Positions 45,258 to 47,985 of a stretch of DNA of 64,000 bases are shown here, piece by piece; the first letter of the stretch is position 1, and every line of letters starts with the position of its first letter. The stretch comes from Natronobacterium gregoryi SP2 (GTDB lineage Archaea; Halobacteriota; Halobacteria; Halobacteriales; Natrialbaceae), in assembly GCF_000230715.2 (NCBI RefSeq), contig NC_019792.1, forward strand, positions 3,038,001 through 3,102,000. The letters run 5' to 3'. The notes under the pieces are model-generated. The model saw only the letters and a program-made list of their open reading frames with translations. It searched no databases and was not told where the DNA came from. Made by a program: the position numbers and the translations under genes.

Positions 45258-45367
45258 CTAGTACCGTCCCAAGCGTGGACCGACTAGTTGAGAGTTGGCC
45301 CAAACCGATCACGATTCTCGATCAGGAGTAAAGCGCACTAGTCAGAGTAGACTTGGGACGCTACTAG
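45258..45367. mobile_element. CTAG-bounded miniature element, copy A (110 bp)
   Basis: Begins CTAGTACCGTCCCAAGCGTG and ends ACTTGGGACGCTACTAG, so the ends are inverted repeats of about 17-20 bases with CTAG at both borders. No coding capacity. Copy B (46887-46996) is the same length with about seven differences. The right border CTAG supplies the stop codon of the IclR gene on the minus strand. Confidence 0.85.
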
Positions 45368-46113
45368 ACGTAATCCAGGTTCACCTGGGTGATGTTTGCG
45401 GCCCGCTGGACGACATCGGCAATTTCCTCGCGTCGTGGTTCGTCGAGTCGACGTTCCGGCCCACAGACGCAAATCGAACCACGGACACGGTCGTCTTTGT
45501 CGAGGACCGGTGCTGCCACGCAAACCATCCCCGCGATGCGTTCGCCCTCGTCGACCGCGTACCCCCGTTCGCGGGCCGCCTCGAGCTGGTCGAACAGCAC
45601 CTCTGGGTCGGTAACCGTCTGCGAGGTGACCTCGACGAGTCCCTCGTCGACCAATTTCGCGACTCGGCCGTCGTCCACGTGCGCGAGCATCGCCTTTCCG
45701 GGGGCGGTCGCGTGCAGGGGAATCCGTGCGCCCGGGTACGCGAACAGATTGATCGCGTCGGGTCCCTCTTCGACCGCGAGGATCACTGCCTGGTCGTTCT
45801 CCGCAACCAGCAGAGTCACGTGTTCGCCGGTCTCCTCGGCGACCGTCTCGAGTTGGTCACGCACGGCCTGATAAATTTCGAGACGGTGACAGTGGCGGTG
45901 TCCGACCTCCAGAAAACGAGTCGTAGTCCGGTACTCTTTGTCCTCGATCGTCACGTATCCCGTCGAGACCAGTGTCTGGAGATAGTCGTGGACCGTGCTG
46001 ACGGGCATCTCGAGTCGTTCTGCCAGTTCCGAGACGCGGCCCGGTCCGTTCTCCGAGAGTTCGTCGACGATGGCGAACCCGCGTTCGACGGAACGGTTCG
46101 ATGCATCGGTCAT
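45364..46113 (-). CDS. IclR-family transcriptional regulator
   Basis: A 249-residue regulator: N-terminal winged helix (SVERGFAIVDELSENGPGRV, MPVSTVHDYLQTLVSTGYVT) and C-terminal ligand domain (HLPLHATAPGK-type IPLHATAPGKAMLAHVDDGR, YAVDEGERIAGMVCVAAPVL, GSICVCGPERRL). IclR proteins in haloarchaea control sugar and aromatic catabolism. No catabolic operon is next to it; miniature elements occupy both sides, so its original target may have been displaced. The stop TAG lies in the border of element A. Confidence 0.92.
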   Translation of the reverse strand: MTDASNRSVERGFAIVDELSENGPGRVSELAERLEMPVSTVHDYLQTLVSTGYVTIEDKEYRTTTRFLEVGHRHCHRLEIYQAVRDQLETVAEETGEHVTLLVAENDQAVILAVEEGPDAINLFAYPGARIPLHATAPGKAMLAHVDDGRVAKLVDEGLVEVTSQTVTDPEVLFDQLEAARERGYAVDEGERIAGMVCVAAPVLDKDDRVRGSICVCGPERRLDEPRREEIADVVQRAANITQVNLDYV

Positions 46114-46718
46114 AGTCCCGAAAAGTACTGTTTTGCACAGAAACATTTCGGTATCGTCGGAACGAGTTTCGGCGAGGGTGTCGTCGTCGTTCCGTTCGGG
46201 CGAGAGATCACTGACGATGGGCGCCGTCTCCGGACGATGGCGTCTGATCGGAGTTAGTCTGGACGGCGAGGTTATCAGACCTCCGACATATTGTGTGATT
46301 AAGACAATTGTAGTTGACGGGCTCTAACCACACTCATGTTAGATATAATACTATATGTCTCAGATATCATTCTGGACAGCAAACTGTTTTCTCTCGAGTT
46401 GGTCGTAGTCTTCGCTGCTGGCAGACTTCAGTTGGAGCCCTCGAAGAGTTCTGTACGAGCCCAGATACAAACTATCTGCCTGTTCTTTGAATGGCCCGTG
46501 CTCGAGGTAGACACCAGACAGATAACGTGAAAAATATACGATCACATTCGATAGTAGTAATCATACCGGGAGGAAAAGGTATGGCAAAGAGAGCCGGCTG
46601 ACCGGTGTCGCGTACGCTCGACGACTGTCGTCGGACGGCGGAGCCGTCGATGATCGAAGAACGGCTCGTACGGTCCGCTGTCGGCCACTACCGCAGTCGC
46701 GGCGATGAGTGCTCTCTA
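46114..46718. other. 605-bp AT-rich intergenic region
   Basis: No supported gene. 46290-46380 and 46500-46580 are strongly AT-rich. Short frames of about 60 codons on both strands (46360-46545 minus, 46336-46530 plus) lack family features. The segment 46580-46700 resembles decayed coding DNA. The IclR promoter must lie near 46114-46160. Confidence 0.5.
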
Positions 46719-46890
46719 CTAGTACCGTCCCAAGCGTCGACTGATGAGTAAACCCAGACGACCGCATTCGGTTTCACTCATCTGTTTAGGCTTGCCAAGG
46801 CACTAGTGGCGGGCCAAGCCTGAACTGATGGGTCGAATCTGGCGGTGTCGCTCGATTCGACCCGTCAGTCGACGGTTGGGACGGTACTAG
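46719..46890. mobile_element. CTAG-bounded miniature element, copy C (172 bp)
   Basis: Left CTAGTACCGTCCCAAGCGTC; right GACGGTTGGGACGGTACTAG. Inverted ends of about 28 bases with few mismatches. The interior differs from copies A and B but includes a CACTAGTGG centre and its own inverted segments (AGGCTTGCC / GGCCAAGCCT). It shares its right CTAG with copy B. Confidence 0.82.
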
Positions 46891-46996
46891 TACTGTCTCA
46901 AGCGTGGACCGACTAGTTGAGAGTTGGCCCAAACCGATCACGATTCTCGATCAGAAGTAGAGTGCACTAGTCAGAGTAGACTTGGGGCGGTACTAG
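46887..46996. mobile_element. CTAG-bounded miniature element, copy B (110 bp)
   Basis: CTAGTACTGTCTCAAGCGTG ... ACTTGGGGCGGTACTAG; about 94% identical by eye to copy A. Abuts copy C on the left (shared CTAG) and cydB on the right, where its CTAG carries the cydB stop. Confidence 0.85.
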
Positions 46997-47985
46997 TACC
47001 TCCCCTCTAGCGTCGCCGGGCCGCGAAACAGCGAGTACAGAAACAGGAAGTACCCGCCGATGATCGGGAGAAAGATCGCCGCCATGATGGCCGTCATGTT
47101 GAGTGCGAGTGGTGAGACGACGGCGTCGGCGATCGTCAACTCGGCTGCGGGATCGACATAGGGGTACAGCAGGGTAGCGACGAAGCCGACGAACGCACCC
47201 GCGAGTCCCGCGGCACCGAGCACCGCGGCGTGGTAGCGCTCTCGAGCGACCGACCCGATAGTAACGACTGCGAACGCGAGCGTCGCGACGACGATAGCGA
47301 CGGTCGAGCACGACAAGAGCACCGGCTGGAGGTCGGGGTACCGACCGAACAGGACGATCGCCGTCAGCGCGAACAGTGCGACGTAGACGATCGTGGCTAG
47401 TTGGCCACGCTGGGTGACACGTGTTCGGAGGTCGCCCCTGGTCTTGACGCCCAGGAACGTCCCGCCGAGGACGACGGTAAGCGCGACGACAGTCAGTCCG
47501 ACGACGAGCGGAGCGATCGCGAGCGCAGACGGCTCACCGAGGACCCAGCTCGCGACGAATACGCCGAGCAGGAACGGGGACGCGGTACTGCCGGCGACGA
47601 AGCAGGTATCCCAGAATCGGACCCACGTCTCGTCGTCACGCTCCTCGCGGAGTTTCGATCCCAGTCCTCGCAGCGACAGCGCGAACAGGATCGCGAACAC
47701 GAGCAGGTAGTAGCGCGACAGGATGTTGGCGTAGACCGCTGGGAAACCGGCAAAAAGCACTGTCCCGAACAGAACGAGCCACACCTCGTTTGCCTTCCAC
47801 AGCGGACCGAACGCCGCGAGCATGGTCTCGCGCTCTCGCTCGTCGGCTTCGACGAAGAGGATGCCGAGCCCGAAGTCGAAGCCGTCGAGTAGGAGGTAGC
47901 CACCCAGCGCGACGACGACGAGGCCGAACCACAGCTCCGGCAGCGACTCGAGCAAGTACGCCGAGTCCGACAGCACGCTAGTCAT
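46993..47985 (-). CDS. cydB: Cytochrome bd quinol oxidase, subunit II
   Basis: A 330-residue membrane protein: LPELWFGLVVVALGGYLLLD GFDFGLG region at the N-terminus is the CydB signature, with FGPLWKANEVWLVLFGTVLF and RYYLLVFAILFALSLRGLGSK following. Eight or so membrane helices. With CydA it oxidises quinol and reduces oxygen to water at low oxygen tension. It overlaps the cydA stop by eight bases. Its own TAG stop lies in the border CTAG of element B. Confidence 0.94.
   Translation of the reverse strand: MTSVLSDSAYLLESLPELWFGLVVVALGGYLLLDGFDFGLGILFVEADERERETMLAAFGPLWKANEVWLVLFGTVLFAGFPAVYANILSRYYLLVFAILFALSLRGLGSKLREERDDETWVRFWDTCFVAGSTASPFLLGVFVASWVLGEPSALAIAPLVVGLTVVALTVVLGGTFLGVKTRGDLRTRVTQRGQLATIVYVALFALTAIVLFGRYPDLQPVLLSCSTVAIVVATLAFAVVTIGSVARERYHAAVLGAAGLAGAFVGFVATLLYPYVDPAAELTIADAVVSPLALNMTAIMAAIFLPIIGGYFLFLYSLFRGPATLEGRY

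Follow-up and report, generated by a model that had tools for sequence, protein, structure and literature searches.

Two elements of 110 nt in the chromosome of Natronobacterium gregoryi SP2 are 94% identical, are bounded by CTAG at both ends, and finish exactly where two genes finish, which raises the question of how such elements come to lie directly on the stop codons of their neighbors. The locus belongs to the 64,000-nt stretch analysed here (contig NC_019792.1, 3,788,356 bp long, positions 3,038,001 to 3,102,000; hereafter the window), and its features are collected in Table 1. Our analysis confirmed what the preliminary description had claimed for the length, identity and borders of the two copies and for the border CTAGs as the TAG stops of an IclR-family gene and of cydB, both genes being confirmed by Pfam. 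The IclR gene ends in GTC TAG and cydB in TAC TAG, and in each case this CTAG is the right border of the adjoining type A unit. The copy next to cydB closes a chain of three hairpin units in the order C-B-A (46719-46996), in which C and B have the CTAG at 46803-46806 in common, and B and A that at 46887-46890; the chain and the types B and C had been overlooked previously. Each unit at the locus forms a much more stable hairpin than shuffled sequence does (z -3.3 to -7.7), and with their inverted arms, lengths of 88 or 110 nt and lack of a transposase gene, the units have the format of miniature inverted-repeat transposable elements (MITEs). The 17-nt unit end matches the window seven times (≤3 mismatches) against 0.12 expected, and the genome holds 42 full-length type A copies at 93-100% identity, so the two copies are not a product of chance. 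CTAG itself is depleted in the window, with 39 occurrences against 106 expected from shuffles, in line with its supposed rarity.

Table 1. Units, borders and adjoining genes at the locus (positions in the window)
Feature	Position	Strand	Remark
Type A unit, 110 nt from CTAG to CTAG, single-unit array	45258..45367	+	hairpin z -4.5
Border CTAG holding the IclR TAG stop (45364-45366)	45364..45367	-	
IclR-family regulator gene, stop coincides with element border	45364..46146	-	PF01614, E 9.7e-37
Type C unit, 88 nt, chain unit 1/3	46719..46806	+	89% to reference C, left end A-like
Type B unit, 88 nt, chain unit 2/3	46803..46890	+	at least 10 identical copies genome-wide, including itself
Type A unit, 110 nt, chain unit 3/3	46887..46996	+	94% identical to 45258-45367
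Border CTAG holding the cydB TAG stop (46993-46995)	46993..46996	-	
cydB, cytochrome bd oxidase subunit II	46993..47985	-	PF02322, E 7.6e-72

Sequence and pattern searches mapped 234 units in 125 arrays across the genome, falling into three types of 110, 88 and 88 bp (62 A, 107 B and 65 C units). Pattern counts of 194 B/C ends and 63 A cores place the genomic total at ≥~257 units, of which the 234 units with array and flank context represent ~91%. Single (49) and double (49) arrays predominate, followed by 21 triple and 6 quadruple arrays. The outer borders of well-preserved units are CTAG at the left in 110/116 cases and at the right in 101/115, which bears out the confinement to CTAG. Mean divergence of well-preserved copies from their consensus is 2% for B, 3% for C and 5% for A, and the low value for B points to a recent burst of this type.

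The placement at the IclR and cydB stops recurs throughout the genome, as had been proposed for elements drawn to C-TAG stops. With genes called by our own home-made model, which assigns a coding fraction of 0.82 to the window, the TAG stop of a neighboring gene is provided by a border CTAG in 47 of the 125 arrays (38%); another 75 arrays fall between genes and 3 within a predicted gene, whereas free CTAGs, mostly sampled near arrays (n = 231), comprise 14 at stops, 129 in intergenic DNA and 88 in genes. The two sets differ in stop versus intergenic position (Fisher P = 3e-8) and in position outside versus inside genes (P = 4e-16). Stop-bearing border sides number 52, with both sides involved in five arrays, and of all 238 flanking sides, 152 are turned toward the 3' end of a gene. 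Convergent, tandem and divergent gene pairs occur in the ratio 43:57:13 with arrays compared with 31:85:50 without them, an excess of convergent over divergent pairs at arrays (P = 1e-5). No predicted gene starts at an array border, and 7/86 do so within 60 bp. When arrays are removed in silico, two convergent genes then end in one CTAG in five cases. The border TAG is in frame with or without the insertion, so the element does not make the stop, and the relatives agree with this.

Joined array flanks were searched and aligned in four genomes of the same genus (G001-G004), and the empty sites obtained by this comparison contained a single CTAG, in several instances the stop of the orthologous gene. 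A lone CTAG without a unit occupies the place of array 471164 in G003, of array 928429 in G001, G002 and G003 (a TTC TAG stop in all), of array 667451 in G003, where it is common to convergent genes, and of array 2965440 in G001 and G002, another unit being present there in G003. Other sites in the relatives hold near-CTAG sequences (CGAG, CTTAG, TTTAG, CTATC) and no unit. As for the genes of the present locus, cydB of G004 ends in AGC TAG and the IclR gene of G003 in TGA, neither with a unit at that place. At array 1092042 (L240 in G003), a B-like unit occupies the same CTAG in the same orientation in G003; the units of the two species are ~80% identical and their flanks 90-94%, and this shared occupancy could reflect either an old common insertion or a recurrent one. 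Since two sites (1092042 and 2965440) are occupied in G003 too, the family predates this species. What occupies the site of array 1998665 in contig C48 of G004 (L199) is an unrelated insertion of ~80 bp (TATAGCCACTGCAA...TTGCAGTTGTTACCATA) that adjoins a TA, possibly a member of another TA-targeting MITE family.

When 125 genomes of the family were searched for the 17-nt end, end pairs 1.2 kb apart emerged, corresponding to elements of 1217 bp in other genera (full-length in G020, G071 and G090) and of 1209 bp in G083. The 1217-bp element is bounded by CTAGTACCGTCCCAA(C/T)CGTGGACAG... and CTAGTA(G/C)CTTCCCAA(G/C)CGT...; its ORF2 matches PF13358 DDE_3 (1.7e-27) and NF033545 IS630 (3.5e-43), and its ORF1 contains HTH domains. 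The two frames overlap at a run of A7 (L121, L122, L124), which suggests a fused transposase produced by programmed frameshift or slippage. In G105, the termini of an IS630 element are 94-96% identical to the unit ends across 27-32 nt. G020 contains a miniature unit and a full-length IS that adjoin at one common CTAG, and B-like 88-bp units with conserved ends also occur in other genera. In N. gregoryi itself, a fast first-look search found no homologue of the cognate transposase (P0001) at E ≤ 1e-8, and the examined stretches of this genome yielded no matching IS630 ends or transposase, an apparent local absence that had gone unremarked. An HMM search detected many other IS630 elements in this genome, and the two main groups were rejected as the source by their ends (TAATGA..., ATACTGATGG...), which are unrelated to those of the units. 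As judged from sequence, with no source copy found here and other ends on the sampled IS630s, the units look like orphan MITEs. Their present mobility is doubtful, since no matching transposase was found in this genome, and the ends suggest that the mobilising enzyme was of the IS630 type.

One local group deserves mention in its own right. An IS630-family element of 1156 bp, with a 379-aa transposase and the termini TAATGA...TCATTA, occupies the loop of an inverted repeat in each of the copies inspected (G000 1370637, 3282925, 1622941, 2645710, 1775537 and 3588848; L185, L186, L187, L182, L180 and L104, respectively), for example GAGAGAGCT|IS|CGCTCTCTC, and looks to target hairpin or terminator loops.

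The units are, in our reading, most probably non-autonomous MITEs with IS630 (Tc1/mariner-type) terminal inverted repeats, mobilised in trans and joined at the TA in CTAG, to which we assign a probability of roughly 0.88. The transposase of ISY100, an IS630-family element, inserts at TA and duplicates it in vitro (PMC2170065), and IS630 prefers TA in CTAG, going by the title of Tenzen and Ohtsubo 1991 (cited in PMC2170065, used in PMC6811581). At some time an IS630 transposase acting in trans would have excised units and joined them to the TA within CTAG. With G as the first and C as the last base of the element, the target would become C-TA-G...C-TA-G, so that a complete CTAG would be rebuilt on both sides. 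A gene ending in ...C TAG would keep its stop when hit, and convergent genes with a common palindromic CTAG would each keep one; C-TAG stop sites would consequently be cost-free and fill up. Each insertion would add one CTAG, so that new units could land at unit borders, each lengthening its chain by 84 or 106 bp. Insertion at TA with G...C termini would be enough to explain both the growth of chains and the preserved stops. Instead of the 4-bp target duplication put forward previously, the reading to be preferred is that TA is duplicated within a favored CTAG: among single-base CTAG deviants at well-preserved outer borders, the outermost, target-derived base is the altered one in 8/15 (P = 0.017), which is only suggestive, borders that are CTAG being ambiguous in this respect.

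The chains carry a further pattern. All 109 junctions between units overlap by exactly four bases, 108 being CTAG and one TTCG. Like units are neighbors 5 times against 38.5 expected (0/5000 shuffles of unit types fell below 21), and unlike neighbors are present in all orientations of each pair. This pattern fits stepwise insertion accompanied by loss of like neighbors, in which chains of unlike units would persist and like neighbors would probably be lost through recombination or palindrome instability, perhaps direct-repeat collapse or the instability of long palindromes. Fragment searches of the examined stretches found no unit inserted at the two internal CTAGs that each type A unit contains. 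There are ~120 such internal sites against ~360 border sites, and random use would place roughly 1/4 of the 109 secondary insertions internally; this rough comparison, which ignores insertion timing, suggests that insertions favor unit borders over the CTAGs within units. Simple random insertion at CTAG fails to account for the border preference and the scarcity of like neighbors, and the rebuilt CTAG alone leaves the border preference unaccounted for. Tentatively, and at somewhat less than even odds, we propose that the family seeds its own targets: it would rebuild CTAG, fill cost-free palindromic stops including those shared by convergent genes, and then use unit borders over internal CTAGs, until about one-fifth of chromosomal CTAGs were element-borne. 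This share (~1/5) is an estimate extrapolated from unit counts and the density of free CTAGs in the window (29 in ~62 kb). Separately, one A unit is split at an internal CTAG by a different insertion of ~2 kb (G000 3588107-3590380, L104), whose ends are CGCTCTT...AAGAGCG and whose duplication, CTCAACTAG, is 9 bp long.

Other origins were weighed against this one. The preliminary description had looked to IS5-type transposases, and a CTAG-requiring element of the IS5 group (IS427/IS870-like) would indeed give MITEs with this target: IS870 needs 5'-CTAG-3' by the title of Fournier et al. 1993 (in the reference list of PMC6471742), and MITEPsy1, whose assignment to IS5 is tentative, has CTAG or YTAA as its target and duplicates 4 nt (PMC3189936). 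However, all full-length elements found with the unit ends encode an IS630 transposase and none an IS5 one, and no IS5-type element with these ends was seen among the opened end-pair hits in the 125 family genomes, making an IS5 origin highly improbable; the units on CTAG stops stand, and their source is to be sought in the IS630 family. Chains might also have been copied as composites, two or three units jumping together on functional outer ends. The outside ends of any chain are functional ends, and some arrangements recur (b2-c2 15 times, b1-c2 13 times), yet all four orientations of each unlike pair are found, no single composite is dominant, and the shares of single-unit and two-unit arrays (49/125 each) fit stepwise growth. 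Composite copying is therefore not favored, and we regard it as unlikely.

The hairpins could instead be domesticated RNA or DNA elements, involved in 3'-end processing or terminator-like in the manner of BIMEs, and kept for their action at gene ends, as opposed to tolerated parasites. The orientation of most flanking sides toward gene 3' ends, the 98-100% identity of most B copies and the stem itself would suit such a role: across nine units from several genera, 94.8% of the cells of the 30-pair stem pair, and 23 two-sided stem changes occur compared with 8.4 in shuffles. The covariation is real, but nearly all changes lead from one Watson-Crick pair to another, palindromy is expected of MITEs too and can be kept by correction at the DNA level, and DNA-level palindrome maintenance also fits. 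Moreover, the genes on either side of an array are divergent in 13 cases and tandem in 57, orthologous genes in relatives manage without units, and an Rfam search of the units returned no match. We consider domestication quite unlikely, and identity with REP/BIME elements, palindromes that owe their mobilisation to a REP-associated tyrosine transposase, is likewise unlikely given the IS630-type ends and the CTAG borders. PATEs, which derive from IS605 and lack terminal inverted repeats, were rejected as a match, since the units possess such repeats.

Several components of the IS630-derived MITE reading belong to known kinds, namely ~100-bp IS630-derived MITEs (RUP), CTAG targeting (MITEPsy1, and coupled to a stop codon in IS870) and the CTAG preference of IS630. 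IS630 of Shigella sonnei and ISY100 share with the probable source of our units the DDE_3 transposase family and the preference for TA in CTAG, and presumably the two-base TA target logic; in contrast, the units carry no transposase, and the IS with matching ends is haloarchaeal, has two ORFs and did not turn up in this genome. The RUP element of Streptococcus pneumoniae (107 bp, ~110 copies per genome, ends resembling those of IS630-Spn1) is alike in being a ~100-bp IS630-derived MITE, but the portion of PMC3049150 used here presents it as a simple repeat, with neither CTAG-sharing heterotypic chains nor stop-codon placement. MITEPsy1 of Pseudomonas syringae resembles the units in size (100 nt) and CTAG target (or YTAA) and was shown to transpose; it differs in its tentative IS5 relationship and in its six copies in strain 1448A, two of which interrupt genes (PMC3189936). 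Haloquadratum walsbyi also harbors haloarchaeal transposase-free repeats (MITEs, PATEs and SMRs), some of its MITEs having no functional cognate transposase in the genome, and CTAG is avoided on its chromosome; those elements, however, insert mainly in other mobile elements, and the sections of PMC3119063 consulted mention no IS630 link and describe no CTAG-sharing chains or stop-codon borders. In IS870 (IS5 group), from what its title-level record conveys, the CTAG target is coupled to a TAG stop as here, except that its own ORF takes its stop from the target, whereas here host genes keep theirs. In the open-access literature we encountered neither CTAG-sharing heterotypic chains nor MITEs on shared convergent stops; the new elements are these chains, the avoidance of like neighbors and of unit-internal CTAGs, and the stop-codon placement.

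These arrays offer a concrete way for a mobile element to reach high numbers in a gene-dense archaeal genome while leaving genes intact: the strategy is to target a four-base word that seldom occurs in coding DNA, by itself offers a stop context in both directions and is restored with every insertion. CTAG depletion is general in haloarchaea and accompanied by a conserved orphan CTAG methylase, the cause of both being an open question according to PMC6471742, and our findings bear on why haloarchaeal CTAG is depleted and methylated. With more than 100 natural sites, the genome also allows arrays, empty sites and shared stops to be compared between species.
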